Below, in pieces: positions 26,439 through 44,183 of a stretch of DNA of 64,000 nucleotides. This DNA comes from Verrucomicrobiia bacterium. GTDB lineage: Bacteria; Verrucomicrobiota; Verrucomicrobiia; Opitutales; Cerasicoccaceae. Every line of letters begins with the position of its first letter. The first letter of the stretch is position 1. The stretch is from positions 499,136-563,135 of the forward strand of contig JAUIHT010000002.1 in the NCBI GenBank assembly GCA_030432235.1, given 5' to 3'. A program made the position numbers and the translations under genes. The notes beneath the pieces are model-generated. The model was not told the origin of the DNA. It did no database searches and was given only the letters and a program-made list of their open reading frames with translations.

Positions 26439-26456
26439 AATTTATATGTATAGACA
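26439..26456. promoter_or_regulatory. Xylan-locus operator, site 1 (before the GH10 gene)
   Basis: AATTTATATGTATAGACA matches the consensus TGTCTATA-N2-TATAGACA with a perfect right arm. It lies 99 bases before the preferred GH10 start, and inside the longer reading frame that starts at 26429, which argues against that earlier start. Confidence 0.65.
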
Positions 26457-26554
26457 GCGTCTGTATTTCATTCGATCACTCTGGGAAGCTAAGCTTCTGT
26501 TTTAGCCCTAATGCGCTCACGCGTATAAAAAGCCACCGAGATATCCATACGAAA

Positions 26555-28369
26555 ATGACGGCTCAGCTCCCCTCTATCCGCCGCAGTACTGATTGCATTC
26601 GCTTGTTGCTCATCATCACTTATTTGACCGTGCTCACGGGCTTATCGGCCCAATCAAGCGAGCCCCCACTCTCTCCTGCGACTCCGATAACGATTGGTAA
26701 TTTCCAGCCCTATCCAGATGCTGAAGCGGTAAAGATCACCCCCGCCAGCGGCGACCCGTACGGAGTCCTGCGCGTTGAGACTTTTGGTCCGCGTCCCCAG
26801 ATCGACAGCACATGGCAATTGCGCGCCACCCTGGAGGAAAGCTTCCAAAAGTCGGATGTGCTATTCCTCAGCTTCAAGGTTCGTTGCCTGGAGACAAAGG
26901 CCGAAAGCGGCACCGGACAGATCGGGCCATTGGTAGAGATGAAAAACGCCCCCTACACAAAGACGATCTGGGGACGTTTCCCGGTAGTCAAGGAGTGGAC
27001 AGAAATCCAGATACCCGGCCGTATCGGTCGTGATTATTCCAAAGGTGAAATCAATCTGAACCTGCGCGTGGGCTACGACTCGCAAATCATCGAAATCAAA
27101 GACCTGCAACTATGGAAGCTGCCAGCGAAAACGGACCTGGCCACTTTGCCGGTGACCACCCCGCCCCTCTACGAGGGACACGAGGAAAACGCTCCGTGGC
27201 GACAGGAAGCGCAGGAGCGTATAGAAAAGTACCGCAAGCAGGATATCACGGTCCGCGTCCTCGACAGCGCCGGAAACACAGTCCCTGGCGCCACCGTACG
27301 CCTGGAGCAAACGCGGCACGCTTTTGCCTTCGGAACCGCCGTTGCGCTGAAGCAATTGTTCGAGTACGACAAGCCCGCGGATACCGCCCTCTACCAAAGC
27401 ATCCTGCTCAAGAACTTCGACGCCTGCGGCACAGAGTACGATCTAAAATGGCCCAGTTGGGAGAAGACCCGCGAGCGAACCCTGCACGGGCTGGAATGGC
27501 TTCATCAAAACGGTTTCGAAGAAGTACGCGGACATGTCCTGCTATGGCCCAGCTTCCGTCTCACACCGGACTACTTAAGAGATGCTGAAGATGATCCGGA
27601 GCGACTACGACAACTGATCCTCGACCATATCAAAGATATTATCGTACCTACCGCCCCCTACGTCCGGACGTGGGACGTAATCAATGAACCACGCCTCCAC
27701 CACGAAATACTCGATTTGCTCGGCGGGGAATCCTTCATGACCGAAGTCTTTAAGGAGGCCCAGCGCTGGCTCCCTCAGGGACGATTTTTCCTCAACGAAG
27801 CGCTTGCGCTGTCGCCCGGCCCCCGGATGGACGCCTTGGAGCAGACTACCCGATTTCTCCTCGAGGAGGGGGCGCCGATTCACGGGCTTGGCATCCAGTG
27901 CCATTATAACGGCTGGGTCGTCACACCGCCCGCCCAGCTCATTGAGACACTCGATCGTCTGGAGCCGCTGGGCCTGGATATCGAAGTGACTGAGTTCGAC
28001 GTGGACAGCGCCGACGATGCGTTTCAGGCACGCTACCTGCGCGATTTCTATACCGCTGTCTTTAGTCACCCCAGCGTAACCGGAATCCAGATGTGGGGGT
28101 TCTGGGAGGGGCGACACTGGAAGCCCTCCGCTGCGCTCTGGAAGCGCGACTGGACGCCCAGGCCCGCCGCACTCACCTACCTGGACTTGGTCCGCGGGGA
28201 ATGGTGGACGCAAGCGTCGGGCCGGACCGCCGCGGACGGCACCTGGAGTAAACGCGGCTTCAAGGGTGAGTACCACATTACCGTGCTTATGGGGGAAACG
28301 GTCGTTGGCACCCGTACGGTCAAACTCGACGAAGCCCCTCTCTCACTTGATATTCATATACAAAGATAA
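26555..28369 (+). CDS. GH10 endo-1,4-beta-xylanase
   Basis: A 604-residue secreted enzyme predicted to cut the beta-1,4 bonds of xylan. From ATG 26555 it begins with a signal peptide (basic start, CIRLLLIITYLTVLTG, cleavage near LSAQSS). Residues about 40-190 form a beta-sandwich like a carbohydrate-binding domain, followed by a short beta region and the GH10 barrel from about 260. The acid/base is Glu378 in WDVINEPR and the nucleophile Glu480 in DIEVTEFDV; WGFWEGRHW closes the barrel. A frame open from 26429 is rejected since it has no signal peptide and spans the operator. The secreted-protein gene 18 bases downstream is probably co-transcribed. Confidence 0.92.
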   Translation: MTAQLPSIRRSTDCIRLLLIITYLTVLTGLSAQSSEPPLSPATPITIGNFQPYPDAEAVKITPASGDPYGVLRVETFGPRPQIDSTWQLRATLEESFQKSDVLFLSFKVRCLETKAESGTGQIGPLVEMKNAPYTKTIWGRFPVVKEWTEIQIPGRIGRDYSKGEINLNLRVGYDSQIIEIKDLQLWKLPAKTDLATLPVTTPPLYEGHEENAPWRQEAQERIEKYRKQDITVRVLDSAGNTVPGATVRLEQTRHAFAFGTAVALKQLFEYDKPADTALYQSILLKNFDACGTEYDLKWPSWEKTRERTLHGLEWLHQNGFEEVRGHVLLWPSFRLTPDYLRDAEDDPERLRQLILDHIKDIIVPTAPYVRTWDVINEPRLHHEILDLLGGESFMTEVFKEAQRWLPQGRFFLNEALALSPGPRMDALEQTTRFLLEEGAPIHGLGIQCHYNGWVVTPPAQLIETLDRLEPLGLDIEVTEFDVDSADDAFQARYLRDFYTAVFSHPSVTGIQMWGFWEGRHWKPSAALWKRDWTPRPAALTYLDLVRGEWWTQASGRTAADGTWSKRGFKGEYHITVLMGETVVGTRTVKLDEAPLSLDIHIQR

Positions 28370-28387
28370 TCGTTAGCCCAATAGACT

Positions 28388-29206
28388 ATGAACCACAAAC
28401 ACCCCCAATGGAATCGCGCGCTACGCATCGCGCTCGCACTTACTTGCACACTCGCTGCCTCCACCTTGCCCGCTCAGGAAGCTGAAACCGATTTTTCCGA
28501 TGGCGCGGGAGACCAGCGTCCCGACCAGTATCCCGGTGCACGCGGTGCCGGCTGGGCCGAAGGGTGGCAAATACCCAAATACGCAAAAAATATCGACTTG
28601 AATGTAGAACTCGATCCGGGCGATCCATCCCCGCATCTGGTCTTCACTATGCAAGTTCAGCCCCCGTCCCAAGATTACAACAACGCCTCGGTCATGCGTA
28701 AATACAGGGATGCCGACAGGCCCCACCAGATTCGCATGAAAATCCAGATGAATCACACCGAGGGCTTCAACGACTATTCGGATTTCGTGGGCGCATTCGG
28801 CGGAGAGAATCCCCGAACGAATTTCACCAGCACCTCCACCTGGGCGGTGCGGACGGTTGGCAAGACCCCCGACAAGTGGAAATGGGGCGCCTATCATGGC
28901 GAGGCTGACGGCGGTGATTTCTCCGGTCGCGCCATGCAGGAGATCGGTGGGAGAGGCAACGGCATGTTAATCGAACCAGGGAAGATCTACGAAATTACGA
29001 TCAAGAATTATCCGGAAAAAGGCAGCTACGACATCACCGTCTCGAACGGCAAGGACGAGGTCAGCTCCGCAGGCCTACGCTACCGCGCCCAAAAGGATGA
29101 CTGGGCCCCGGAAGAGTCCGGCATCGCATTCCAGGCCCAAACGAATGAGAGCGACGCCAGCGTCAGCTTCTCCATCTTCGAGGTAGAGATATCTCCCTTG
29201 AACTGA
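28388..29206 (+). CDS. Secreted beta-rich protein of unknown function, downstream of the xylanase
   Basis: A 272-residue exported protein: signal peptide with ALRIALALTCTLAAST, cleavage near LPAQEA. The rest looks like a single beta-sandwich (jelly roll) with many Asp, Asn and aromatic residues (for example GWAEGWQIPK, KWKWGAYHGE), similar in style to sugar-binding domains. No family was recognised. It follows the GH10 gene by 18 bases and precedes a terminator, so the two are likely one transcript under operator site 1. A sugar-binding or lytic helper role is a guess. Confidence 0.75.
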   Translation: MNHKHPQWNRALRIALALTCTLAASTLPAQEAETDFSDGAGDQRPDQYPGARGAGWAEGWQIPKYAKNIDLNVELDPGDPSPHLVFTMQVQPPSQDYNNASVMRKYRDADRPHQIRMKIQMNHTEGFNDYSDFVGAFGGENPRTNFTSTSTWAVRTVGKTPDKWKWGAYHGEADGGDFSGRAMQEIGGRGNGMLIEPGKIYEITIKNYPEKGSYDITVSNGKDEVSSAGLRYRAQKDDWAPEESGIAFQAQTNESDASVSFSIFEVEISPLN

Positions 29207-29261
29207 CCTTGATCGAGTAGTCGCCAGCTTCCCTATTACATCGCTGACAAGTTCGCCAGCT

Positions 29262-29300
29262 CTGCAGGCTAAAAACGGCCTGCAGTCTGGCGGTTTTTTT
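29262..29300 (+). terminator. Intrinsic terminator after the GH10 operon
   Basis: CTGCAGGC (29262-29269) pairs with GCCTGCAG (29278-29285), and a run of seven T residues ends at 29300. It lies 56 bases after the secreted-protein gene. The rest of the 432-base gap to 29638 shows no convincing gene; a 79-codon frame at 29347-29586 has no family features. Confidence 0.6.
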
Positions 29301-29638
29301 GCGCCCACAATTCGTCGCTAATGCGGATAAAGGCTAGTCGCACTCCATGCTCAAGGTCTCCCCAGTGATGTCCATGAGCCGGACTTCGCACAGGCAATCG
29401 ATAGCGAGGCAGGACAAGGATAATCTTTCTACAGTCTCTACCGTGGGTTCTCTTTGCCTAGTCCCTGCCCTGCCAGGGAGTCCACCTGGCACTATCGGAG
29501 TCTTACTCTCTCTCCCCTATCTTGTAGCGACGAGTGCCTCGCGTCCGTGTCTCATGGAAATAAGCACCGCTATCCGCTCCTGCTAAAGCAAGGCGGATCT
29601 CGTCTCTAAAAGAATTCCCCGGAACGGGAGAAGTGAAA

Positions 29639-30511
29639 CTAGCTGCGCTTGAATCGGCGACTGACCGCGACAAAGCCTAATACTGCCAGCGACATGAATA
29701 CCGCAACCGAACCAGGCTCGGGAACCGCGCTGACGCTCAGGTTGTCAATGCCAAGCCCCTGGCCATTACCGCTGACTCCGGAAAAGTCATCAGACCAGCG
29801 AATCCAAAAAGTATCGCTTTGGGCAATCGAAAGCCCGGAAATAGTCACGGATATATCGGTGAAGTTATCGGCGCCTGGGCCGCCTGCTTGACCAGCCGTC
29901 TTCGCCACATAACCAGAGCCGTTATAAATCGTGTTACTATTGCCGTTCAGACCGGCGCCTGTTCCAGAGTCAAACAGTGAGGCGAAATCACCGTCGTTAT
30001 AATCGGTCCAACTGCCGTCGGTCAAGCTGGTCGCATCCTCCGAGAAGGTAAACTGAAGCGTATTGTTAACGGTTGCGGTGTTCCAATTCCACTGCTCACC
30101 CGTGTAGCTAATGGTCAGCGATGTGATTACCGCGCCCGTGTTGTTGATAAACTGCGCACCGAAAACCGCGCTGTAAGTGCTGTTACTCAGCGAACCGAGG
30201 GCGGCTTCGGTGCCATTCGGGCGAAAGGCGAACAGCGATGTCGCGGTCGCACCGGTGCCAGGCCACTGATTATTCGCATTGGATGCGCGGTATAGCGTGT
30301 CAGGAGCATTCACCGTGTAGCCATACCATCCCTGGATCGTGCTGTTGTCTGTCCACGTGTAGAGGCCCGCTGAGCTTACATTGGGGATACTGTTAAAATC
30401 CTGGGTATAGCCATCAGTCGTGAGGGAGACCTGAGCGTGGACTAAAGAAGTAAAGGCGAAGGCTGCAACAGCGGCCCGAATAGAGATTAAGGGGAGCTTT
30501 GTCATAATCAT
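29639..30511 (-). CDS. PEP-CTERM secreted protein, paralog 1
   Basis: A 290-residue exported protein: signal peptide (KLPLISIRAAVAAFAFTS, cleaved near VHAQ), a beta-rich domain, and the sorting end VPEPGSVAVFMSLAV followed by RRFKRS. Very close to the 34089-34928 protein, with the same strings FGAQF, SYTGEQW, KTAGQAGGPGA and FWIRWSDDFSG. A third, more distant copy is at 38599-39339. The open frame extends upstream to 30895, but the extra part overlaps the regulator gene and operator; the start is at 30511 or 30505. The likely fate is the outer surface. It shares operator site 2 with the divergent LacI gene. Confidence 0.85.
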   Translation of the reverse strand: MIMTKLPLISIRAAVAAFAFTSLVHAQVSLTTDGYTQDFNSIPNVSSAGLYTWTDNSTIQGWYGYTVNAPDTLYRASNANNQWPGTGATATSLFAFRPNGTEAALGSLSNSTYSAVFGAQFINNTGAVITSLTISYTGEQWNWNTATVNNTLQFTFSEDATSLTDGSWTDYNDGDFASLFDSGTGAGLNGNSNTIYNGSGYVAKTAGQAGGPGADNFTDISVTISGLSIAQSDTFWIRWSDDFSGVSGNGQGLGIDNLSVSAVPEPGSVAVFMSLAVLGFVAVSRRFKRS

Positions 30512-30587
30512 ATTAGGGGTTTGGGTTAATGGTGAACTAAACAATCTAACATACTGGCTAATCGCGCCATAGGCACAAATCCGCTTT

Positions 30588-30605
30588 TGTTTATACATAT
30601 AGACA
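30588..30605. promoter_or_regulatory. Xylan-locus operator, site 2 (between PEP-CTERM and LacI genes)
   Basis: TGTTTATACATATAGACA, an almost perfect inverted repeat (one mismatch between the 8-base arms). It lies 77 bases before the PEP-CTERM start and 141 bases before the divergent LacI-type gene, so autoregulation of that gene is possible. Confidence 0.7.
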
Positions 30606-30745
30606 GGCTTGCGATCCTGGCACCGAGCCTCATCATGGAATCGACTTTCTGAAAGTTTTCTGAACCCGGAAAACCTCTGCCTCGAAAGCGACAAAGAAAA
30701 TACCTGGCAGCGACAAAGCTTTCCAAAACCATATTTTTCAACCAG

Positions 30746-31771
30746 ATGGCTACCCCGCGCCCTACCCAGAAGAAAATCGCCGAAGCCACCGGTCTGACCC
30801 AAGCAACGGTTTCTATGGCTCTGGCCAAGAGCCCCAGGATTCCTGCAGAGACACAGCAAAAAGTCTTTGAGGCTGCGGAAAAGCTGGGCTACCACCCCGA
30901 TCCCCTCCTATCAGCCTTGTCCGCCTACCGGAAGCAGCTAGTGCCGGCCCAGTACCAGGCAACCCTGACATGGCTAGTCAACGGCAGTGACGATTCAGAG
31001 TGGAAGAAGTCAAAAACATTCAAGCTGTACTTCTCTGGGGCGGTGAAACGGGCCAAAGAACTGGGTTACCGCCTCGAAACCCACCATCTTCTCAGCGAGG
31101 GTATGACCCCGCGCAGGCTGGCCAGCATGCTGCAGACTCGGAATATCCCGGGGATGCTGCTGGCCCCACAGCCGAATCCGGACACGCGCATCGAGTTCGA
31201 CTTCGCACGGTTTTCCGCCGTCACCTTCGGCTACACCCTGACAGAGCCCACGCTGCACCGGGTCACGCTGCACCAGTTCCGTTCCATGACCAAAGTCATG
31301 GATAAGCTGCGGCGTTTGGGTTACAAACGCCCTGGCCTGGCACTTTCCAATGAAAGCGATCATCGGGCCGACTATAATTGGTCCGCTGCTTTTTGGAGCG
31401 CTCAGCGCCTTTTGCCCTCCCGTGATCGCATACCGTTGCTTCTACCCAAACCCTTAACCCAGGAGGGTTTTAACCGCTGGCGCCAAAAGTATCGTCCCGA
31501 TGTCGTTGTTACGATTTGGCCAAGAGTTCACGATTGGCTTATTGAGGCAGGGGAAAAGATTCCGGAAACAACGGGCCTGGCTCTTCTCTCAGTTCCAGAC
31601 GAAGGCAAAATCTTTTCCGGCATCTGGGAGAATCCTGAGCTCATCGGCGCACGCGCTTTAGAGTTCCTGGTGGACATGATTCATCGGCGTGAATGCGGGG
31701 TGCCGACAGTGCCGCTGACTCAATTGGTAGAGGGCACCTGGGTCGATGGCACGACCCTTCGCAAGCTTTAG
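30746..31771 (+). CDS. LacI-family transcriptional regulator, paralog 1
   Basis: A 341-residue protein: N-terminal helix-turn-helix (residues 7-27, KKIAEATGLTQATVSMALAK) and hinge helix (PDPLLSALSAYRKQ), then a periplasmic-binding-like sugar sensor to the end. The ligand half is atypical in lacking the usual ISVVG-type strands of LacI. Close paralog of the protein at 44176-45225, with identical recognition-helix residues QATVSMALA, so both could bind the same operator. It lies among seven TGTCTATA-type repeats and is the best candidate to bind them. LacI proteins mostly repress until a sugar is bound. No ligand can be assigned; xylose or xylo-oligomer is plausible from the neighbours. Confidence 0.9.
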   Translation: MATPRPTQKKIAEATGLTQATVSMALAKSPRIPAETQQKVFEAAEKLGYHPDPLLSALSAYRKQLVPAQYQATLTWLVNGSDDSEWKKSKTFKLYFSGAVKRAKELGYRLETHHLLSEGMTPRRLASMLQTRNIPGMLLAPQPNPDTRIEFDFARFSAVTFGYTLTEPTLHRVTLHQFRSMTKVMDKLRRLGYKRPGLALSNESDHRADYNWSAAFWSAQRLLPSRDRIPLLLPKPLTQEGFNRWRQKYRPDVVVTIWPRVHDWLIEAGEKIPETTGLALLSVPDEGKIFSGIWENPELIGARALEFLVDMIHRRECGVPTVPLTQLVEGTWVDGTTLRKL

Positions 31772-31819
31772 CAATACTCCCAGCCTACGGACTGGCGGAA
31801 CTTGTCGACTAAAGCGCCA

Positions 31820-32998
31820 TCATGCCCGAGTGGTCAATTCGCTCACATCCAGCACATACATCTTTCGTTTGCCCTCGTGGACCGAATCGAAGCAGACCTG
31901 TGTCCCGTCGCGATTCCAACGCGGATGAAGGTCGCAACGGATTTGCCACTCCATCGGCGGCGAATGGAAACGCCCCAACAGATGCAGGGCACCCGTGTGC
32001 ATATGGTAAAGCAGCAGGCTCCGCCGATCCGCCTCATCCGGATAGGTATCCGTTAACATCCACTCTCCATTGGGCGAGAAAGAGCAATGCCCATCGCAGT
32101 TGAAGACGGACTCTCCAACCACCTCAATCTCGCTGGTTTTATCGCCAAACAGGAAATAGCGCGCTCCCACATCATTGCGATTTGCCCAAGCCAGGATGGC
32201 TGAATCACCTCGCCAGTCATAATGCGAAACCATGCCATGATCGGACAGGCAACGCAAATCGCTGCCATCCAAATTCATCGTCATGAGCCGGGTCTTGCCC
32301 ACTTCTTCATCAGGCGTTTTATAGCGGTGTAAAAAGGCAAAGCGCTTCGGGTTCGCACCGAACTGAACGTGGTTGAAACGATGCGTTTTTCCGTCGAATT
32401 CAGTCCGACGCTGAAAGTCCGCCGCTTCCGCGATACTCAGAATAAGCTCTGATCGCCCCGTGTTGACATCCACGGAGTACAACCCGTCGTTTTCAGGCTC
32501 ATCCGCCAGCTGCCATGGGTCCGGCACACCGTCATAGCCATAACCAGGCCGTTGGTGATGAAGGCGGGAGAAGTTCAGGGAGACCGCATGCGTGCCGGTA
32601 CGGTTCAGCGCATAGACTGGACGCTTAATCATGCGTTCCAAGCCCGTAGTGACGTTAAGAACGCGGGCGCAAAACGCACCTTCAGACACATCATTGAAGA
32701 TAATATCCGAACTGCTCCCAAGCCATTGTAGCATGCATCCCTGTTGCCAGTTCCAGGCCTCCGTTTCAGCAAGCGGACGCCATTCGTAGCCCTGTTGCGT
32801 ATCGATCACCCCAATGATGGCCTTATCACCCGCCCTGGGTGGGCGATCCATAAACGAGGCCCGCAAGCCAAGAATCCAGCGCCCGGAAGCGTCCCAGCAG
32901 GATTTGTCGTAGTAGCCAAAGAAGTGATGCCCGGGACCGCTGGTTACCGCTTGCGCTTCTTCTGTAAATGAAAGGGGAACTGGTAAAGATAATGACAT
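31820..32998 (-). CDS. Six-bladed beta-propeller protein (TolB / oligogalacturonate lyase-like fold)
   Basis: A 392-residue protein without a signal peptide, made of repeated beta-propeller blades with WD/TolB-like ends (CWDASGRWILGLR, FSPNGEWMLTDTY, HPRWNRDGTQVCFDS). Several His, Asp and Tyr residues sit in blade loops (GHHFFGYYDK, CDGHCSFSP), as in the metal-binding pocket of oligogalacturonate lyases, but the catalytic set cannot be confirmed. Probably cytoplasmic, acting on an imported oligosaccharide. The open frame reaches 33154 but the longer form spans operator site 3 and has no supporting features, so ATG 32998 is preferred. Convergent with the LacI gene (48-base gap). Confidence 0.75.
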   Translation of the reverse strand: MSLSLPVPLSFTEEAQAVTSGPGHHFFGYYDKSCWDASGRWILGLRASFMDRPPRAGDKAIIGVIDTQQGYEWRPLAETEAWNWQQGCMLQWLGSSSDIIFNDVSEGAFCARVLNVTTGLERMIKRPVYALNRTGTHAVSLNFSRLHHQRPGYGYDGVPDPWQLADEPENDGLYSVDVNTGRSELILSIAEAADFQRRTEFDGKTHRFNHVQFGANPKRFAFLHRYKTPDEEVGKTRLMTMNLDGSDLRCLSDHGMVSHYDWRGDSAILAWANRNDVGARYFLFGDKTSEIEVVGESVFNCDGHCSFSPNGEWMLTDTYPDEADRRSLLLYHMHTGALHLLGRFHSPPMEWQIRCDLHPRWNRDGTQVCFDSVHEGKRKMYVLDVSELTTRA

Positions 32999-33048
32999 GA
33001 TCTGCCCGCATGCTACCCTTACCCGTGCGCTCGAAGATAGCTCCCTGA

Positions 33049-33066
33049 TGTCTATACATATAAGCG
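33049..33066. promoter_or_regulatory. Xylan-locus operator, site 3 (before the propeller gene)
   Basis: TGTCTATACATATAAGCG has a perfect left arm and a partly decayed right arm. It lies 51 bases upstream of the propeller gene start on the minus strand. Confidence 0.6.
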
Positions 33067-33190
33067 CACAGGCATGCGAACAGCCCTCCAGTACCTGACA
33101 GTTAACCCGGAGCCGGAACGCGCAAAATACATTGCCCCCCCTTGAATCAGCCACCTCCTCGGGTGTCCGCAGGGAAGCTGAGCCAGCGTC

Positions 33191-33208
33191 TGTCTATTTG
33201 TATAGACA
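33191..33208. promoter_or_regulatory. Xylan-locus operator, site 4 (before the pseudopilin gene)
   Basis: TGTCTATTTGTATAGACA, with both outer arms intact and one changed inner base, is among the best copies. It ends 25 bases before the first pseudopilin ATG (43 before the second), a position where binding would block transcription or its start. Confidence 0.7.
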
Positions 33209-33233
33209 CCAATCATGCAGAAGATTATGAATT

Positions 33234-33956
33234 TTGAGCTATAATGTAATAATGCTTTTAAATCATACCCCATGTAAAGGCGGGCAGCCCCGCGGATTTA
33301 CGATAGTCGAGTTACTCACCGCAATCGCCATTATCGCGGTACTCGTAGCGATACTAATCCCGGTAACGAATTCCGTGATAACGAATGCCGGCGTATCGAA
33401 GAATCTTGCGAACCTGAGAAATCTTCAGGCTGCAAACATGCTCTATGCGACGAATAACGATGGCCTGTATGTCCCCGTAGGCACATTCGATGGAACAGGA
33501 GCGTATAAAAACCATTGGCATCGTAACCCTGATTTTGCCCCCATATACCTCGAAGTGTCCGACGTCTATGCATGGCCTGAGGAATTGTTGTCTCCCAAAG
33601 CCGCCCTGCGGGACATCCATGGTAATCTGATGATAGAGCGCTCCTATGGCTACAACTACACCGGGCTGGGCAGCTACGGAGTCCCTGACACCTCGCGAAA
33701 CGCTACCCTGAACCAAGTCTTTCAACCTGCCCAAACCCTGGCGTTTGCGGACGCCCTTGACTGGCAGATACAAATCAACGGCGCCGATAAGTACAAGGGC
33801 GTCGAAGAGGTGGGGAATCCCAATAACAATTCCGCGATAGCCTACCGTTATAACGATAAGGCCGGTGTCGTTTATTTTGATGGCCACACCGAGCTGTTGA
33901 GCCGGGACGACGTCATTGGCAACGTGGAGCTCTGGACGATTCGAGAAGTTCAATAG
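33234..33956 (+). CDS. Pseudopilin (prepilin-type leader) secreted protein
   Basis: A 240-residue protein (222 if the ATG at 33252 is used). It has a type IV prepilin leader: a basic start, the cleavage site RG before FTIVELLTAIAIIAVLVAIL with the conserved Glu at +5, then a long hydrophobic helix. The mature part holds Tyr/Asn-rich beta segments and a C-terminal GVVYFDGHTELLS, as in the DUF1559-like pseudopilins that are amplified in Planctomycetes, Lentisphaerae and Verrucomicrobia. These are processed by a prepilin peptidase and may form short fibres or type II-like export parts. Its role here is unknown. Operator site 4 directly upstream ties it to the xylan genes. Confidence 0.85.
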   Translation: MSYNVIMLLNHTPCKGGQPRGFTIVELLTAIAIIAVLVAILIPVTNSVITNAGVSKNLANLRNLQAANMLYATNNDGLYVPVGTFDGTGAYKNHWHRNPDFAPIYLEVSDVYAWPEELLSPKAALRDIHGNLMIERSYGYNYTGLGSYGVPDTSRNATLNQVFQPAQTLAFADALDWQIQINGADKYKGVEEVGNPNNNSAIAYRYNDKAGVVYFDGHTELLSRDDVIGNVELWTIREVQ

Positions 33957-33993
33957 TTCAATATTCGGCATGCCACGGGTGTCCATGCTGATT

Positions 33994-34011
33994 ATTCTAT
34001 ATGTATAGACA
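33994..34011. promoter_or_regulatory. Xylan-locus operator, site 5 (before PEP-CTERM paralog 2)
   Basis: ATTCTATATGTATAGACA has a perfect right arm and most of the left arm. It lies 78 bases before the 34089 start, as site 2 does before paralog 1. Confidence 0.65.
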
Positions 34012-34088
34012 AGGGGTCGCCTTGTTCCTGGTTGGGGTAGGCAGTAGGGTTTTCCGACATTAAGAAAACAAACCCAAAAACTACTCCA

Positions 34089-34928
34089 ATGAAAAATCGA
34101 TACATCACCTTATTCATCGTTCTTGCCTCCCTCGGCTCGTTGCATGCGCAGATTTCACTAACCGGAAGCGGCTACAACGAAGATTTTGAAAGCGTTGACC
34201 GGAGCGTGGGCCTGCACCCCTGGACGGATGACAGCACCCTCTTTGGTTGGTATGCTGAAACCGGTTTCCCTAGCGATTCACAATACCGTGCCTCGAACGC
34301 GAATAATCAGACCCCGGAAAGCGGCGCAACGCCGACAGCCCTGTTTCTCTTTCGTTCAGGCAGCACTGACGGCGCCTTGGGCTCACTCTCGAACAGCACC
34401 TACCAGGCCACGTTCGGCGCACAGTTTACAAATGCCACTGGCTCGACGATTACCGACCTGTCCATCAGCTACACCGGCGAACAATGGGGTTGGGGCTCAA
34501 GCAGTGACTTTAACACGCTGGACTTCGCCTACTCGACAGATGCCACCAGTCTATCCAACGGCTCCTGGTCGGACGCATCCTCGCTCAGTTTCACCGCCCT
34601 ATACTCGGGAGGCACCGGAGCCGGCCTCAATGGTAACTCAGACACTATCTACAGTGGCGGCAGTTATGTGGAAAAGACCGCCGGGCAGGCCGGAGGACCT
34701 GGCGCACCTAATTTTAGCGCTATCTCAGCCAACATCTCCGGCTTGAACATCGCCAATGGTGAGACCTTCTGGATTCGCTGGTCGGACGACTTCAGCGGCA
34801 CCGGCAATGGACAGGGCCTGGCCATCGACAACCTCTCCGTCAATGCAATCCCAGAGCCCTCCACGATAACCTTTTGCCTAACCGTGATCATCGGCACACT
34901 CCTGTGGCGCATCCGCAGACGCGGATAG
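34089..34928 (+). CDS. PEP-CTERM secreted protein, paralog 2
   Basis: A 279-residue exported protein with a signal peptide (RYITLFIVLASLGSLHAQ) and the sorting end IPEPSTITFCLTVIIGTLLW followed by RIRRRG. The mature domain is almost certainly a recent duplicate of the 29639-30511 gene: shared runs include YRASNANNQ, LGSLSNSTY, SYTGEQW, AGLNGNS and KTAGQAGGPGA. Probably a beta-sandwich at the cell surface. The dehydrogenase gene follows 39 bases downstream and may be read from the same promoter under site 5. Confidence 0.87.
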   Translation: MKNRYITLFIVLASLGSLHAQISLTGSGYNEDFESVDRSVGLHPWTDDSTLFGWYAETGFPSDSQYRASNANNQTPESGATPTALFLFRSGSTDGALGSLSNSTYQATFGAQFTNATGSTITDLSISYTGEQWGWGSSSDFNTLDFAYSTDATSLSNGSWSDASSLSFTALYSGGTGAGLNGNSDTIYSGGSYVEKTAGQAGGPGAPNFSAISANISGLNIANGETFWIRWSDDFSGTGNGQGLAIDNLSVNAIPEPSTITFCLTVIIGTLLWRIRRRG

Positions 34929-34967
34929 ACCAAAACGTATTTCGCACAGCAGTTCGACTTAGGACAC

Positions 34968-35963
34968 ATGAAGCGGCCTGAAGGGATTTATCTGATAAAA
35001 GATAAGTTCTTCCCCCTGATCTATGGGCCGGAAGAGCAGGCGCTCATCCGTACTCTCGTGGATATTGCCCCGGGGCCGCTCCAGTTGACAGAGGCCAGCG
35101 ATGCCCGATTGAGCAGCGTTGAGATCATCTTTTCCGGCTGGGGCGCCCCCGTTTTCGACCAGGCCCTTTTAGATCGAATGCCCAGCTTGAAAGCGATTTT
35201 TTACGGGGCGGGCACGGTAAAAAAAATCATCACCGATTGCATCTGGGAGCGGAGCATTATCGTGACAAGTGCCTATTATGCGAACGCCATACCCGTTGCC
35301 GAGTTCACCTTCGCGCAAATCATTCTGGCACTAAAAAGCACCTGGCAGTATGCGCTCAAACTGAAAGCGGAGCAGCGGTGGTCCCAGGACCTGGCAATCC
35401 CGGGCTGCTTCCACGGAAGCAAGGTGGGCATCATCGCGCTCGGCACCATTGGCCGATTGGTTTGCGAGCGGCTGCGGTCAATTGAAGTCGAGATTCTCGC
35501 CTATGATCCCTATGCCAGCAAGGCGCAAATGGAGGAAATGGGGGTCCGCAAGGTAAGCCTGGAGGAGCTCTTTGCCGAATGCGAAGTCATTAGCCTGCAC
35601 GCGCCCAAGCTCGATTCGACATTGAACATGATCCAGGATTTCCATTTTCGTCTGATGGCCCCGGGGGCAACTTTTATCAACACTGCCCGAGGCGCCATCG
35701 TGGATGAAGTGGGAATGCTCAATGTCCTTAAGGAGCGCCCCGACATCATGGCCATTCTGGATGTTACAACCCTGGAGCCGCCCGAACCAGGCTCGGCCAT
35801 TTTCACTTTGCCCAATGTAATTCTCACCCCGCATATCGCCGGGTCCATGGGGCGCGAATGCCGACGTATGGGGCGCCTGGCAATTACTGAGTGTCAACGT
35901 TTCCTCCAAGGCGAACCACCCCTTTATCCGGTCAACCTGGAGAACTTTCACCTCATGGCCTAG
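34968..35963 (+). CDS. D-isomer-specific 2-hydroxyacid dehydrogenase family protein
   Basis: A 331-residue cytosolic oxidoreductase of the D-2-hydroxyacid family (D-lactate, glyoxylate/hydroxypyruvate and phosphoglycerate dehydrogenases). The NAD site reads VGIIALGTIGRLV, with Ala at the first glycine of GxGxxG. The catalytic Arg is in INTARGAIVDE, the Glu in TTLEPPEPGS and the His in LTPHIAGS, so activity is likely. Substrate is not evident; a sugar-acid or glyoxylate step in pentose use is possible. It follows PEP-CTERM paralog 2 closely and ends just before operator site 6, so it may be the last gene of the site 5 unit. Confidence 0.88.
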   Translation: MKRPEGIYLIKDKFFPLIYGPEEQALIRTLVDIAPGPLQLTEASDARLSSVEIIFSGWGAPVFDQALLDRMPSLKAIFYGAGTVKKIITDCIWERSIIVTSAYYANAIPVAEFTFAQIILALKSTWQYALKLKAEQRWSQDLAIPGCFHGSKVGIIALGTIGRLVCERLRSIEVEILAYDPYASKAQMEEMGVRKVSLEELFAECEVISLHAPKLDSTLNMIQDFHFRLMAPGATFINTARGAIVDEVGMLNVLKERPDIMAILDVTTLEPPEPGSAIFTLPNVILTPHIAGSMGRECRRMGRLAITECQRFLQGEPPLYPVNLENFHLMA

Positions 35964-35968
35964 AAAGC

Positions 35969-35986
35969 CATTTATATGCATAATCG
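35969..35986. promoter_or_regulatory. Xylan-locus operator, site 6 (weak; before the GH43 pair)
   Basis: CATTTATATGCATAATCG keeps the central TATATG-ATA but few outer bases, so it is the weakest of the seven. Its place, 53 bases before the GH43 reading frame and 6 after the dehydrogenase stop, fits the pattern of the others. Confidence 0.4.
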
Positions 35987-36038
35987 CTCAAAGAATTTGT
36001 AGAGGACACCGTGAAGGTAAAACCTCTGCAAGATAGCA

Positions 36039-36897
36039 ATGCCTTCCTTGCCCTTAACCAACCCGCTCATAGCTGAGGCTGGAATGTCCGACCCTCACGC
36101 GCTGGTGGTTGATAATGTTTGCTATCTGTTCACGGGGCACGATGTAGGCTTTGGCATCAGTGACTGGGTCATGCCTCACTGGCGCATCTATAAGTCCGGG
36201 GATTTACAGAATTGGGAGCAGGTTGGCATCATCGATCCCTCGGACAACTACATGGGAGCAGGTAACACCTCGTGCTGGGCGGGAGACATTGTCGAGCGTC
36301 ATGGCCGTTACTTCTGGTATTTTTCAAATCGCAAGGAAAGCACCGGTGTCATGGTTGCCTCGTCGCCTGAGGGGCCCTACGTGGATGCTCTTGGGAAGCC
36401 CATGGTCGATTCCTTCGACCCCCACCATCTTCGTGGATGACGACAACACGCCCTATATTATTTATGGCGAGGGCGACTACCAGATTGCGCGATTGAAAGA
36501 CTCCATGATCGAGCTGGACGAGGAGCCGAGGCTGATTCCATTGGAGCGCAAGGATGTTTTCCCGGAGATGGATAAGAACTCGCTGCATAAGCACAACGGC
36601 ACCTACTACCTGAGCTGCTCGGGCTACTATGCGACGTCAAAGAACGTGTATGGCCCGTACGAATACAGGGGCCTTGTCGGCGAAGGTTGGCAGCTCGAAT
36701 CGGTTTACGCGCACGGCGACTTTTTCATCTTCAAAGGGCAGTGGTATCATGTCTGGTGCAAGTACCGCAACCGTGCGGTCGACCGCATACGTGACTGCTA
36801 TATCGCGCCCGTGCACTATACTCCAGAGGGCTTGATGTACGATGATTTGGAGCACTTGAGATTGAATGCTTGTTCAGCGCCGCACGCCTCCGCCTAA
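36039..36897 (+). pseudogene. GH43-family glycosidase broken by a frameshift at a C5 run
   Basis: The first frame (36039-36440) reads SDPHALVVDNVCYLFTG (likely catalytic base Asp), then shifts after VDSFDP. The continuation is in another frame from FVDDDNTPYIIYGEG to the stop at 36897, including FPEMDKNSLHKHNGTYYL and the GPYEYRGLVG segment. The two halves join perfectly if one base is removed from the C5 at 36419-36423. The joined protein of about 285 residues is GH43-like, of the subfamily with arabinosidases and xylosidases. This may be a real pseudogene, a phase-variable gene or a sequencing error. Together with the next gene it forms a GH43 pair. Confidence 0.8.
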
Positions 36898-36916
36898 AAA
36901 CCTTTCCCACAGAAAA

Positions 36917-38494
36917 ATGATAGAGAACCCTATCCTGAAGGGCTTCAACCCCGACCCCTCCATCCTTCGTGTCGATGAGGATTACTATATTGCGACCTCG
37001 ACCTTCGAATGGTTTCCCGGCGTACAAATCCATCACTCCCGCGACTTGGTCAACTGGCGTCTGCTCACCCGCCCCCTGGACCGCATCAGTCAGCTAAACA
37101 TGCTCGGCGAACATGCCTCCTGCGGTATCTGGGCCCCGAACCTTACCTGGGACGACGGTACCTTCTACTTGGTCTACACGGACATCAAAACCTATATGAA
37201 AGGCATTAAAGATGCCCACAACTATGTAGTCACGGCCCCGTCGATTGAAGGCCCCTGGTCCGAGCCCACCTATCTGCACAGTCACGGTTTCGACCCCGCC
37301 CTCTACCACGAAGACGGACGCCACTGGGTGCTCAGCATGGAAACGGACTATCGCAAAAACCGCTCCCGCTTTGGAGGCATCATTATTCAAGAGTACTTGC
37401 CCAAGGAAAAACGAGTCACCGGCCCGGTCACCGAAATATTCAAAGGCACGCCGCTGGGGTCCACCGAAGGCCCAAACCTTTATAAGAAAGACGGATGGTA
37501 CTACCTGATCGTCGCCGAAGGCGGCACTTCTTACGGCCATGCAGTCACTGTCACGCGCTCCCGCTCCCTGCTGGGCCCTTACGAACCCGACCCCTCAGGC
37601 CCAGCCCTGACCAGCCGTAACCACGCGCTGGACCCCCTGCAAAAAGCCGGGCATGCCAGCATCGTGGAAGTCCCGGACTCAGGTTGGTACATGGCCCACC
37701 TTTGTGGTCGGCCCATCGCCCGTAAAGGCCGCTGTACGCTCGGACGCGAAACCGCCCTACAGCAGGTTTTCTGGACGGAGGATGGCTGGCTCCGGGTTGG
37801 CCCGCTCGCTGGATGTGCGGCGACGGAAGTCCCGCCTCCCGGGCTTCCCCCGGCGCCCTGGCCAGCGCTTCCCATCCGCGAAGACTTTGAGGAGGCGAAG
37901 CTGCCCCTGTGCTTCCAGACGCTGCGCATACCGCTGAAGGAAGACACTCTCAGCCTTGTGGAAAGGCCCGGCTATCTGCGCCTCAAAGGCCGCGACTCGC
38001 TCTACTCCCGCCATTACCAGGCTCTGGTGGCACGACGCTGGCAGACCTTCCGTTTTCGCGCCTCGACTTGCCTCGAATACGCCCCCACCCACTTCAAGCA
38101 CTCTGCCGGTCTCATCTGCCTGTATGACCAGGAAAACTTCTTTTATCTCAAGGTCGGTTTCGACGAGAAAACCGGACGCATGGTAGAGATCATGACCAGC
38201 GTCAACGGCGAGCTGGATTTCCCCCTCGATGGCCCTGTCCACATTCCATCCGATGAGCGCTGGGTGCTATCCGTGTCGGTGGATTTCGACATCCTGAAGT
38301 TTTCACACGGACCCGAGAATGGGCCGCTGTCAGCAATCGGTCCTGAGTTCGACGCCAGTATTTTATCGGATGAGCATTGCCGCGAAGGCAGGTTCACTGG
38401 CGCATTCGTAGGCCTGTGCTGCCAGGACCTGACCGGGGGCCGCCAGCATGCCGACTTCGACTGGTTCGAATACGAGGAAAAGTCTTCAGGATAG
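36917..38494 (+). CDS. GH43-family beta-xylosidase / arabinofuranosidase
   Basis: A 525-residue protein without a signal peptide. The five-bladed propeller holds the GH43 triad: Asp in FNPDPSILRVDEDYYI, Asp in SHGFDPALYHE and acid Glu in LGSTEGPNLYKKDGWYYL. A C-terminal beta-sandwich (about 330-525) is as in the XynB-type family 43 xylosidases, which shape the active site of exo-acting enzymes. It probably trims xylo-oligomers in the cytoplasm or at the membrane. ATG 36917 starts right at the catalytic N-terminus; the frame open from 36866 overlaps the previous gene. It lies 19 bases after the broken GH43 gene, so the two were probably one unit. Confidence 0.9.
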   Translation: MIENPILKGFNPDPSILRVDEDYYIATSTFEWFPGVQIHHSRDLVNWRLLTRPLDRISQLNMLGEHASCGIWAPNLTWDDGTFYLVYTDIKTYMKGIKDAHNYVVTAPSIEGPWSEPTYLHSHGFDPALYHEDGRHWVLSMETDYRKNRSRFGGIIIQEYLPKEKRVTGPVTEIFKGTPLGSTEGPNLYKKDGWYYLIVAEGGTSYGHAVTVTRSRSLLGPYEPDPSGPALTSRNHALDPLQKAGHASIVEVPDSGWYMAHLCGRPIARKGRCTLGRETALQQVFWTEDGWLRVGPLAGCAATEVPPPGLPPAPWPALPIREDFEEAKLPLCFQTLRIPLKEDTLSLVERPGYLRLKGRDSLYSRHYQALVARRWQTFRFRASTCLEYAPTHFKHSAGLICLYDQENFFYLKVGFDEKTGRMVEIMTSVNGELDFPLDGPVHIPSDERWVLSVSVDFDILKFSHGPENGPLSAIGPEFDASILSDEHCREGRFTGAFVGLCCQDLTGGRQHADFDWFEYEEKSSG

Positions 38495-38510
38495 ACCCAC
38501 CTAGGCAAAA

Positions 38511-38528
38511 AATATATATGTATCAACA
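38511..38528. promoter_or_regulatory. Xylan-locus operator, site 7 (partial; before the third secreted paralog)
   Basis: AATATATATGTATCAACA keeps the centre TATATGTAT and the final ACA. It lies 71 bases before the 38599 start, the same spacing as sites 2 and 5 before their PEP-CTERM genes. Confidence 0.45.
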
Positions 38529-38598: not shown

Positions 38599-39339
38599 AT
38601 GACACAAAAATCCCTTACCCTCCTTGCCACCGGCGCAATGCTCTTTCTCGTAAACTCCGCCCAGGCCAAGGTCGTGTTTGTAGAGGACTCCGAGTACGTC
38701 CAGCCCTTCGAGCAAGGCAAGAACGGCGTGGACGCCTCCACGATAATTCACGATTACGGTGCCTACCCCTGGGTCGACAACACCACCGTTGTTGGCTGGT
38801 ATGCCATCGTCGATGATGACACCCCTTCTGAGTACAAAGCTTCCAATGGCAATACCCAGGAAGGCGCACCGGGCATTTTCCTTTTGAGAAAGGCGGGCAA
38901 GAGCGGCGCACTCGGCACCATGCGTGAAAGCTCGAACAAAGGCTTCACCGCCATGGGGCTGGAACTGAGTAATGACACGGACTCAACCATCACCGAGTTC
39001 GCCGTCAGCTATCTTGGGCAGCAGTGGCAGCATAACAGCGGTGGGGCTGACAAACTGGTTTTCCAGTACTCAACCGATGCCAGTTCCCTGGACACAGGCA
39101 AGTGGACCACCGTTGACAGTCTGACCTTCAACAGCCTGGTGGATTCCGGCCCGAATGACTACATCGGCCTTGCGACCACCAGCGGTGTCCTGAGCGAAAC
39201 CATCTCGGGCAAAGTCACCGACCTTCAGCTAAAGAGCGGCGAGAGCATTTGGTTTCGCTGGGTTGATGAAAACAATAAAGGCACCGACCAGGCCCTGAGC
39301 ATCGATTCCGTTTCGATTCGACCCACCCTTTCCAAGTAA
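38599..39339 (+). CDS. Secreted beta-rich protein, paralog 3, lacking the PEP-CTERM tail
   Basis: A 246-residue exported protein: signal peptide (KSLTLLATGAMLFLVNSAQA) and a mature domain that follows the two PEP-CTERM paralogs in order (YPWVDNTTVVGWYA, SGALGTM, AVSYLGQQW, SIWFRWVDE, LSIDSVSI). It ends at RPTLSK with no PEP motif, hydrophobic helix or basic tail, so it is probably released rather than anchored. Divergence from the others is large. Function unknown; operator site 7 lies upstream. The next gene starts 98 bases downstream after a small hairpin. Confidence 0.8.
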   Translation: MTQKSLTLLATGAMLFLVNSAQAKVVFVEDSEYVQPFEQGKNGVDASTIIHDYGAYPWVDNTTVVGWYAIVDDDTPSEYKASNGNTQEGAPGIFLLRKAGKSGALGTMRESSNKGFTAMGLELSNDTDSTITEFAVSYLGQQWQHNSGGADKLVFQYSTDASSLDTGKWTTVDSLTFNSLVDSGPNDYIGLATTSGVLSETISGKVTDLQLKSGESIWFRWVDENNKGTDQALSIDSVSIRPTLSK

Positions 39340-39367
39340 AGCCAAGCACAGCGTTACCTGCCTTGGG

Positions 39368-39384
39368 ACCAAACGGTGTTTGGT
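39368..39384 (+). terminator. Possible terminator hairpin
   Basis: ACCAAAC (39368-39374) and GTTTGGT (39378-39384) form a 7-bp stem with a 3-base loop, 28 bases after the paralog 3 stop and followed only by TTC. It is weak, so transcription may continue into the next genes. Confidence 0.35.
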
Positions 39385-39437
39385 TTCACTGGCCAAGCAT
39401 GCCCCCGCACTTATTCTCAGAAAAGGCTCCCCTCCCC

Positions 39438-40877
39438 ATGAAACGAACCCTATCATGCCTGGCACAGTTCAGCCTCATTGCTTCGGCGATGGCCGTGCCG
39501 ACAAGCGATTTAAGCCAGACCGACCTCCAGAGCTCCCTGAGCCAGTTTGAAGCCCTCTACGAAGACGTGCTGCCGTGGGTTGCCGAGCTCTATGACCCCG
39601 TCAGTGGCGGCTTCTACGAGTCCATCGGGCTAAAGCGCAAACTGGAACCCATAGACTACGGCCCCGATATTCAGTCCACCCATATGGCCTTTTCGATCAT
39701 ACGGCAATCGGACGCCAAGTACTCCATGCCGGAACAGGTTAAGGAGAAGCTGATTCACTACTTCCTGGTTCGTCAGGACCCCGAGACCGGTTACTTCATC
39801 GACCCTGACTACCCGCAAATGCGGGACAACCAGCGCGTCCTCGGCAGGGCGCTGTCGTTTTCCACTGGGTCGCTAAAAGTACTCGACGCCAAACCGCTCT
39901 ATCCCCTGCCCGGCCAGAAGAAGGCCGCCCCTCAGTCCAATGCGCCGAAGCAGTCAAAAAGCGCCTCCACACAAGCGGCCGATCCAAACCTCCAGGCCAG
40001 CACATCCGCCCAAACAAATGGTGCGTCCTCGCAAAGCAAAGCAGCCACGCCGGCGGCAAAGACCCCGAAGGTCAAAAGCGAACCTCCCGAGAATGTTTAC
40101 ATAGTCCCCAACCTACGCGACCTGGATTTGTCGAATGTCCCCCCGCACCTGGTCTCCGCCGAAGCCTTTCGCCAGTGGATGGATGAACGCCCGTGGCACC
40201 ATGCGTGGACAGCGGTGGATAATATTCAATCACAAGGGACGCTCATCAAAAATCTGCCCGAGCCCCTGCGCACGCAAATCATCAACGAAGTCATTCGATA
40301 CATTTCGGAACGCCAAGAGCCGGACACGGGTCTCGTTGGCGAAGGGACCATCGAGGTACGCCTCTCCGGTGCTTTTAAACTGATACTGTTTTGCAGGGCC
40401 ATGCAACGACCTGTGCCGGAAGCCGATAAGTTGCAGGCTACCGTGGTGGAATGGTTCCAGAGCGAAGCCGAGACTGAAAAGATTTTCTTCATCCGCAATG
40501 CCTGCGACATGCTTGATATGCTTATCGACCAAACACGTAATGAGCTGACCGAGGAGCAGCTCGTATCCATCATTCGCTTCGCCACCAGGGAACTGGATCG
40601 CTTCCGCCAGGACGACGGCGCCTTCAGCAATTATCCAGACAGATTCATCGTCTGCCCCAACGACCTCTATTATGGCGAAGACGAAATACCTGCCCAGGCG
40701 GGCCCGCAAAGCAACATCAACGCCACACGTATGGCCATGGCGACGCGTGATGCCGTCTATGGACTGGCCGGCGAAAAGGTTCCGCTGCTCAAGACGAAAA
40801 ACTTTTGGGAGGCATGCCTGGATGATAATTTGACGAATACACCCGCAAACAAGGAAACCCATGGCTCTCAGAAATAA
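39438..40877 (+). CDS. Uncharacterised helical-repeat (alpha/alpha toroid-like) secreted protein, copy 1
   Basis: A 479-residue protein with a short signal peptide (KRTLSCLAQFSLIASAMA). Helical repeats carry the motif D-P-x-(S/T)-G-x-(F/V): YDPVSGGFYES, QDPETGYFIDPD, QEPDTGLVGEG, and QDDGAFSNYP. A later block, FFIRNACDMLDMLIDQ, matches NINACNVLD of the 7.0-8.6 kb fusion protein. Between the two helical halves lies a low-complexity linker of Ala, Ser, Lys, Pro and Gln (about residues 165-215), ending in VYIVP. Such repeats form closed helical barrels in glycosidases, terpene cyclases and sugar epimerases, but no known catalytic set is visible. The downstream paralog overlaps by 17 bases. Start at ATG 39438 by the signal peptide. 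Confidence 0.75.
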   Translation: MKRTLSCLAQFSLIASAMAVPTSDLSQTDLQSSLSQFEALYEDVLPWVAELYDPVSGGFYESIGLKRKLEPIDYGPDIQSTHMAFSIIRQSDAKYSMPEQVKEKLIHYFLVRQDPETGYFIDPDYPQMRDNQRVLGRALSFSTGSLKVLDAKPLYPLPGQKKAAPQSNAPKQSKSASTQAADPNLQASTSAQTNGASSQSKAATPAAKTPKVKSEPPENVYIVPNLRDLDLSNVPPHLVSAEAFRQWMDERPWHHAWTAVDNIQSQGTLIKNLPEPLRTQIINEVIRYISERQEPDTGLVGEGTIEVRLSGAFKLILFCRAMQRPVPEADKLQATVVEWFQSEAETEKIFFIRNACDMLDMLIDQTRNELTEEQLVSIIRFATRELDRFRQDDGAFSNYPDRFIVCPNDLYYGEDEIPAQAGPQSNINATRMAMATRDAVYGLAGEKVPLLKTKNFWEACLDDNLTNTPANKETHGSQK

Positions 40878-42288
40878 AATAGCTCCGATTTGCGTGATTT
40901 TGCTGTCCTGCGTTCTTGGACTTGCGGAGACCGATGCGAGCTCTGAGCGAGAGGAAGCCATGGCCGAGCTGAATGCTCTGTTTGTCGACATCCTCCCCTG
41001 GCTCGCCCAAACCTACGACCCGGTGAGCGGCGGCTTCTACGAATCCATCGGCCTCAAGGAAGGCAAGGAGCCCAAAGCCTACGGCCCCGATATCCAATCC
41101 ACCTTCTTCGCTATCATCATCCTGGATAATGCCGGGCTGGTCGACACCATGCCGCCCGAGGTTAAGGAGAAGATGATTGGCTACTTCCACAGCCGCCAGG
41201 ACCCGGAGACGGGCTACTTCATCGACCCGGATTTCCCCGACATGTGGGAGAACCAGCGCGTTCTGGGCCGCGCCCTCTCGTTCTCAATCGGCTCGCTCAG
41301 AATCCTGGGAAGCGAGCCCCTCTATCCACTCCCGGGTCAGCCCCGCCCCAAAACAACAGCCAAAACACCTTCCGCCCCCGCCAGCAAAGCCCAACCGGCC
41401 GCGCCTGCCGCTTCTTCCTCGAATACAGGCAAGACCACTGCACCAAAACCCACTGCACCAAAACCCACGGCGCCCAAAGCAAATAATGTCTACATCGTGC
41501 CGACTGAAGCGGAGGTCTCACAAATCGACCTATCCCGGGTGCCCCCGCACCTGGTATCCGTGGAGGCCTTTCGCCAGTGGCTGGATGATCGGCCCTGGCA
41601 TTTCTCATGGACGGCCCTGGACAATCTCTCTTCTCAAAAGCAACTCATCAAGGGTCTGCCACCACAGCTTCGTGACCCCTTAATCGACGAGGCCATGCGC
41701 TACGTCGGTGAACGCCAGGAGCCGGACACCGGGCTGATCGGCGGCGGCAATCCGGAGGTGCGTATCTCCGGCGCGTTCAAGTTCGTGCGCTTTTGCGTCG
41801 ATACCGGACGCCCCGTCCCCCGGGCGGAGGAAATGCGCGACTCGCTGATTGCATGGTTCAAGAGCGAGCCGGAAATAGACAAGATATTCTTCATCCGCAA
41901 CGCCTGCGACATGATGAACGATCTCAGCAAGCAAACTGGTCAACAGGTGACTGACGAGCAACTGGTGGAAATCACCCGCTTCTCCACCAAACAGTTGAAG
42001 CATTTCCGACAGGACGACGGTGCCTTTCTCAGCCGCACCAGTGGCTCCTACGTCAATCCCAACGACCTCTACCTGGGGAGCAAGGCCATACCGGCAAAAG
42101 CCGGTTTTCAGAGCGAGATGAATGGCACTTCTAACGCTCACCGTGTCTGGAAAACCATTTACTGGATCGCCGGTCAGGAGCGCCCGGACATGACCATGGA
42201 AGACTTCTGGGAAGTCGTCGCCAGGCAGGACTTCGACAACACGCCTGAACCCGTCGCGGCTGAGTCGAACACCTACATCGTCCCTTGA
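40861..42288 (+). CDS. Uncharacterised helical-repeat secreted protein, copy 2 (tandem paralog)
   Basis: A 475-residue protein with a signal peptide (KIAPICVILLSCVLGLA, cleaved near ETDA). It is a tandem duplicate of the gene before it, overlapping by 17 bases (40861-40877): YDPVSGGFYESIGL, YGPDIQST, QDPETGYFIDPD, NQRVLGRALSFS, QEPDTGLIGGG and FFIRNACDMMNDL are all kept. Its linker (about 160-215) is again Ala/Pro/Lys/Thr-rich, with an imperfect repeat of PTAPK, and also ends in VYIVP; a second YIVP is the last part of the protein. The overlap and duplication suggest that the two form a complex or act on related substrates. Activity unknown. Confidence 0.75.
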   Translation: MALRNKIAPICVILLSCVLGLAETDASSEREEAMAELNALFVDILPWLAQTYDPVSGGFYESIGLKEGKEPKAYGPDIQSTFFAIIILDNAGLVDTMPPEVKEKMIGYFHSRQDPETGYFIDPDFPDMWENQRVLGRALSFSIGSLRILGSEPLYPLPGQPRPKTTAKTPSAPASKAQPAAPAASSSNTGKTTAPKPTAPKPTAPKANNVYIVPTEAEVSQIDLSRVPPHLVSVEAFRQWLDDRPWHFSWTALDNLSSQKQLIKGLPPQLRDPLIDEAMRYVGERQEPDTGLIGGGNPEVRISGAFKFVRFCVDTGRPVPRAEEMRDSLIAWFKSEPEIDKIFFIRNACDMMNDLSKQTGQQVTDEQLVEITRFSTKQLKHFRQDDGAFLSRTSGSYVNPNDLYLGSKAIPAKAGFQSEMNGTSNAHRVWKTIYWIAGQERPDMTMEDFWEVVARQDFDNTPEPVAAESNTYIVP

Positions 42289-42377
42289 AGGCGGGCGTCT
42301 CAAACGTTATCCTAACCTTGCTGCGGGCAGCCTCACGCTAGCCGCGCGTTTCACTACATACCCGCGATAAAAGCACC

Positions 42378-44132: not shown

Positions 44133-44165
44133 CATTCGCTTGAGTAATGCAAGGAGGCCACTACC

Positions 44166-44183
44166 ATGGTTACCCATGCATGA
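44166..44183 (+). other. Possible five-codon leader ORF overlapping the LacI start
   Basis: AAGGAGG at 44151-44157 is the best Shine-Dalgarno here, but its spacing fits ATG 44166, which opens a frame of five codons (MVTHA) ending in TGA at 44181-44183. The LacI start (44176) lies inside it in another frame. Translation restarting after the leader would set the regulator's level. Confidence 0.25.

Follow-up and report, generated by a model that had tools for sequence, protein, structure and literature searches.

A private 18-bp palindrome as the probable operator of a local LacI-family glycan regulon in a Cerasicoccus-like Verrucomicrobiia genome

In a 64,000-nucleotide stretch of a Verrucomicrobiia genome (the window), the same 18-bp palindrome stands before genes for xylan-type enzymes, PEP-CTERM-type proteins, a pseudopilin and a LacI-family regulator (Table 1), raising the question of which protein reads it and whether these genes form a single regulon. 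The initial annotation listed seven copies and left two options, a LacI protein of new specificity or some other regulator. Five clear copies were confirmed, all within three mismatches of TGTCTATANNTATAGACA (starting at 26439, 30588, 33049, 33191 and 33994), against a mean of 0.02 sites per window in dinucleotide shuffles. They take the form TGTCTATA-(CA/TG)-TATAGACA, an even 8-N2-8 palindrome whose 18 bp fall within the 16–22 bp of LacI-type operators. Measured from the end of the site to the start codon, the enzyme and surface-protein genes lie 43–98 bp away and LacI-1 lies 140 bp away, mostly within the 30–140 bp upstream at which most known LacI sites lie (PMC4052901). To score the sites independently of the window, we used a matrix built from Cerasicoccus sites only. 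The five strong sites took ranks 1–5 (scores 23.4, 22.6, 22.5, 19.9 and 16.2) and site 38511 ranked sixth (14.8), compared with a top background score of 12.1 across 390 kb taken from other LacI loci of the same genome. Site 35969 scored 7.2, which is background level, so these scores support six of the seven proposed copies (five strong, one weak) and not the seventh. One further match, at 16201 (score 13.7), falls within a coding sequence and was not counted.

Table 1 Candidate operators and genes of the locus (window coordinates).
Feature	Coordinates	Strand	Remarks
Operator AATTTATA-TG-TATAGACA	26439..26456	.	98 bp upstream of likely GH10 start
GH10 (xylanase family) protein with signal peptide	26555..28369	+	
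Secreted protein, family unassigned	28388..29206	+	co-directional with GH10
PEP-CTERM-type protein	29639..30505	-	paralogue of 34089; sub-threshold NF038120 tail match
Operator TGTTTATA-CA-TATAGACA	30588..30605	.	82 bp from PEP-CTERM gene and 140 bp from LacI-1, which diverge from it
LacI-1, 341 aa	30746..31771	+	LacI HTH, helix QATVSM
Protein with weak beta-propeller similarity	31820..32998	-	JB024 homologue also preceded by sites
Operator TGTCTATA-CA-TATAAGCG	33049..33066	.	50 bp upstream of minus-strand gene 31820-32998
Operator TGTCTATT-TG-TATAGACA	33191..33208	.	43 bp upstream of pseudopilin
Pseudopilin	33252..33956	+	N_methyl
Operator ATTCTATA-TG-TATAGACA	33994..34011	.	77 bp upstream of PEP-CTERM gene
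PEP-CTERM-type protein	34089..34928	+	
D-2-hydroxyacid dehydrogenase	34968..35963	+	C. frondis and C. maritimus homologues sit behind operator
Doubtful site CATTTATATGCATAATCG	35969..35986	.	upstream of GH43; matrix score at background
GH43 gene	36039..36897	+	apparent frameshift near 36435 (real decay or assembly error)
GH43, beta-xylosidase type	36914..38494	+	GH43_C2 domain
Weak operator AATATATA-TG-TATCAACA	38511..38528	.	70 bp upstream of 38599
Secreted protein	38599..39339	+	kept in G002 and every Cerasicoccus locus examined
Conserved secreted protein, no family	39363..40877	+	
Paralogue of 39363	40861..42288	+	
Sodium:solute symporter (SSF)	42378..44132	+	
LacI-2, 349 aa	44176..45225	+	LacI HTH, helix QATVSM; final gene of 38599-45225 run

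A genome-wide scan had been named beforehand as a possible refutation, should the motif turn out to occur at random frequency. Across all 42 contigs of the genome (5.72 Mb), a search for TGTCTATACATATAGACA allowing three mismatches returned the five window sites and one poor match on another contig, and its reversed control had no match in the same 5.72 Mb. The 14-base core TYTATACATATARA, with up to one mismatch, returned the five sites and two others with a single mismatch. As neither search finds anything comparable outside, the motif is restricted to this locus. Adjoining the LacI-2 end of the locus is an open frame of 4237 residues in which many domains are repeated (47121–59834).

The motif also recurs in related genomes, alongside an orthologue of one of the two LacI proteins. 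Cerasicoccus arenae, C. frondis and C. maritimus (genomes of 4.1–5.8 Mb) each contain exactly one match to the 18-mer with up to two mismatches, and in each this match lies inside a homologous locus carrying a LacI-2 orthologue. These loci have the LacI-2 orthologue only (64–68% identical to LacI-2, 55–56% to LacI-1), so the operator can be accompanied by LacI-2-type proteins alone. In JB024, a LacI-1 orthologue (69% identical) occurs with GATTTATA-TG-TATAAACC and related sites; therefore, LacI-1-type proteins accompany a close operator variant. In G002, TGTCGATA-TG-TATCGAAT and AGTATATC-TG-TATAAACT occur with a LacI-2 orthologue whose helix is QSTVSM. The variant sites of both genomes keep the same core and stand upstream of homologous or neighbouring genes. 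No match to the 18-mer occurs in four family genomes that lack a close LacI orthologue (best identity 38–40%), and matches with two mismatches outside the family, which lie beside unrelated genes, were taken as chance.

Although the flanks of the sites have diverged across these genomes, the distances from operator to start codon were kept: 43, 44 and 45 bp for the pseudopilin and 77, 76 and 77 bp for the PEP-CTERM gene, first in the window and then in two other genera (C. arenae and G002), and 70 bp in the window and 74 bp in C. arenae for 38599, whose C. arenae site is strong. The homologous loci keep members of the pseudopilin and 38599–40861 families, with other enzymes alongside (MGH1-like/GH63-like ones in C. 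maritimus and, in JB024, GH95 together with a weak match to GH39), and the symporter is kept in C. arenae and C. frondis. Considering these other enzymes, the substrate probably differs between species.

Both regulators carry the LacI HTH (PF00356; 55.6 and 37.5 bits, cut-off 27). For the C-terminal periplasmic-binding-protein-like sensor domain, a sub-threshold Peripla_BP_3 match was seen for LacI-2 only (22.6 bits, cut-off 26.5). The predicted fold of LacI-1, a modest model (mean pLDDT 68), aligns over its full length with CcpA, RbsR and LacI (E ~1e-10, TM ~0.3); the hinge helix is not visible in this model, where residues 51–70 are of low confidence. The recognition helices had been described as identical, which is true of QATVSMALA itself, but this stretch is preceded by T in LacI-1 and by A in LacI-2. 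In our own alignment, the specificity residues Q/A/M occupy the positions of LacI Y17/Q18/R22. G002 also encodes a more distantly related LacI with the helix QSTVSR, which has CGCGCATACATATGCGTG between its own gene and a divergent heparinase-like gene; here the ATACATAT core is unchanged and the outer bases are altered. Helix and core thus covary, QATVSM and QSTVSM occurring with a TATACATATA-like core and QSTVSR with CATACATATG (C-ATACATAT-G; one related LacI).

The centre of the site had been flagged as TG/CA instead of CG. This is correct for all strong sites, each of which, read in one direction, is centred on CA (TG on the other strand); the CG pair that is usual, not obligatory, is absent. 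In LacI and PurR, the hinge leucine intercalates into and kinks the operator centre, and CA/TG, being a pyrimidine-purine step, is kinkable just as CG is. The corresponding leucine, L58, is invariant in both of our alignments (equal to LacI Leu56 by our own alignment), so the CA/TG centre is no argument against LacI. It is also less remarkable than implied, being of a documented minority type: among 1303 LacI-type transcription factors surveyed, the centre was CG in 1173, another pair in 49 and degenerate in 29 (PMC4052901). Compared with solved CcpA, LacI and PurR complexes (such as 3oqo, 1efa and 1pnr), the likeness lies in the HTH by sequence, apparently the whole chain by predicted fold, and the hinge leucine; the differences are the specificity residues Q/A/M and the centre, which is not CpG. 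Separately, a LacI of Geminisphaera colitermitum with the helix QATVSM (L089:9883) has a CG-centred relative of the operator, CATTTATACGGATAAAAT, ~100 bp upstream of its start.

Of the two options originally left open, we therefore favour a LacI protein as the likely reader, considering its co-occurrence with the motif, the match of helix and core, and the finding that no other regulator is common to all homologous loci. More broadly, given its privacy, its conservation with the LacI orthologue, the conserved distances and the helix/core match, the 18-mer is very probably a LacI-family operator serving a local regulon for the use of xylan or a related glycan. Homodimers of LacI-1, LacI-2 or both would bind TGTCTATA-(CA/TG)-TATAGACA through their identical QATVSM helices, with Leu58 kinking the DNA at the central CA/TG step. 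A sugar breakdown product in the C-terminal sensor domain would act as the switch and jointly control the GH10 and GH43 enzymes, the symporter, the pseudopilin and the PEP-CTERM proteins; the 2-hydroxyacid dehydrogenase would be a further target. LacI-1 may regulate itself through the 30588 site and LacI-2 through the 38599 operon. As a default, we take the LacI proteins to be sugar-relieved repressors. Four observations count against this explanation: one 18-mer is common to two LacI paralogues, either of which may be the binder; the LacI-1 orthologue of G002 has a half-conserved site only in its own locus; an AraC-type gene lies near the C. arenae locus; and the centre is polar. In unidirectional contexts, TG is always read towards the gene (10/10 sites, ~6 independent groups) despite the palindromic arms, a feature that an apolar dimer would not need.

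Some LacI-family proteins activate transcription by recruiting RNA polymerase, and the LacI proteins here might do so from an operator at a fixed place upstream of promoters without a good -35. We consider this unlikely, while noting that LacI binds in this case as well, so that our confidence in it overlaps with that in the preferred explanation and the two are not mutually exclusive. A -10-like hexamer lies 32–35 nt past the site (TG orientation) at most promoters, including those of orthologues, which was reached in 1/2000 shuffles, an optimistic figure as the spacing window was picked after seeing the data, though each shuffle had its own best window. The best case is TATAAT, TATATT and TATATT before three orthologous pseudopilins. 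This spacing would put the operator centre near -53, and a good -35 is not apparent. Nevertheless, the signal is weak when one promoter is taken per orthologous group (174/2000 shuffles, n = 9), and the same geometry fails on the other LacI operator families of these genomes (602/5000 shuffles, n = 45 promoter sides). Scanning for promoters likewise revealed no surplus of sigma-70-like sites. Owing to the failure on those 45 promoter sides, we do not claim activation.

It is improbable that another regulator, for example one of AraC type or one encoded elsewhere, binds the palindrome and that the LacI genes are targets only. Such a regulator would fit the position of both LacI genes behind sites, and the AraC-type gene of C. 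arenae would be a candidate. However, LacI is the only regulator common to the homologous loci, the core tracks the LacI helix across genomes, and in its length and even symmetry the palindrome is of LacI type. It is very improbable that the motif is some recurring DNA element, such as a promoter, and not an operator; the polar centre and the rough spacing to -10-like hexamers would suit this, but the dyad symmetry would be left unexplained, and as the motif is missing from the rest of the 5.7 Mb genome it is no general promoter element. For the same absence from the remainder of the genome, we rejected the site itself as an extended -10 or -35 element. Spread by chance or recent duplication can practically be dismissed: the two PEP-CTERM genes are paralogues, but the flanks of the sites are dissimilar, only 0.02 sites are expected in the window, and conservation across genera already refutes it.

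A local LacI regulon is thus the reading we carry forward, and the sites are both confined to the regulator's locus and conserved with it. It is known in kind, being ordinary local LacI control of sugar genes; what is unusual is the minority-type centre and the predicted pseudopilin and PEP-CTERM targets. Like the local LacI sugar regulons of RegPrecise (Ravcheev et al, 2014; PMC4052901), it has an 18-bp even palindrome, sites mostly 30–140 bp upstream, few target operons, clustering with the lacI gene and presumed autoregulation; it differs in the CA/TG centre, the pseudopilin and PEP-CTERM targets and the two LacI paralogues in one locus. Verrucomicrobiota are not mentioned in the text of that study, and we found no operator study for Cerasicoccus-like Verrucomicrobiota among open-access papers.

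Several other LacI loci of this genome also have non-CG centres. ACATTAC-GG-GTAATGT has only three copies genome-wide (up to one mismatch), all in its own LacI locus, and TTAC-GT/GG-GTAA is a multi-copy palindrome of another. The idea that the CG centre was lost across the genome's whole LacI set was rejected, as CG centres occur at the loci L124 and L146. Within-locus palindrome pairs numbered at least ~30 among those listed, compared with ~2.4 expected from unrelated loci (about tenfold, counted by eye with up to six pairs taken per locus), while most LacI genes had no strong palindrome within 300 bp upstream. Repeats of the TATAGAATATTCTATA type flank a GntR-like regulator gene (L108:16493, 18534 and 19734), which suggests another private operator.

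The 5.7 Mb genome encodes 59 LacI HTH genes and 73 matches to the prepilin-type N-methylation (N_methyl) domain, and a pseudopilin lies within 5 kb of the LacI gene in 20/54 cases, compared with 7.9 by rotation (reached in 0/2000 rotations). In one further LacI locus (L109:10134–14869; C20:286133–290868 of this genome), ACATTACGGGTAATGT occurs in three private copies, alongside a PEP-CTERM-like gene and a pseudopilin of the DUF1559 type. At L103:8163, L157:10523 and L160:13170, in two genomes, LacI-locus palindromes directly precede pseudopilin genes, their sequences all different. According to the available text of a report on polysaccharide utilisation in Verruconatronum alginivorum, another member of the Verrucomicrobiota (PMC13274419), growth on alginate over-expresses a pseudopilin along with the alginate clusters, and the organism has 67 homologues. 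In both organisms, a pseudopilin goes with substrate-specific glycan enzymes and pseudopilins have multiplied (67 there, 73 N_methyl matches here); there the substrate is alginate and that text describes no operator, whereas here the enzymes are xylan-type and a candidate operator precedes the pseudopilin. Tentatively, each glycan module in this lineage might come with a dedicated LacI, a private operator, and a pseudopilin and PEP-CTERM proteins of its own. If so, these type II/IV-pilus-like parts would be substrate-specific, sugar-induced components of polysaccharide use and not housekeeping secretion.

The 18-mer provides a conserved, testable candidate operator for LacI-family control in Cerasicoccus-like Verrucomicrobiota, and would tie DUF1559-like pseudopilins and PEP-CTERM proteins, whose roles are unclear, to a specific sugar switch. 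Several LacI paralogues with matched candidate operators in one genome also offer material for studying how specificity depends on the residues of the helix and on the central step.
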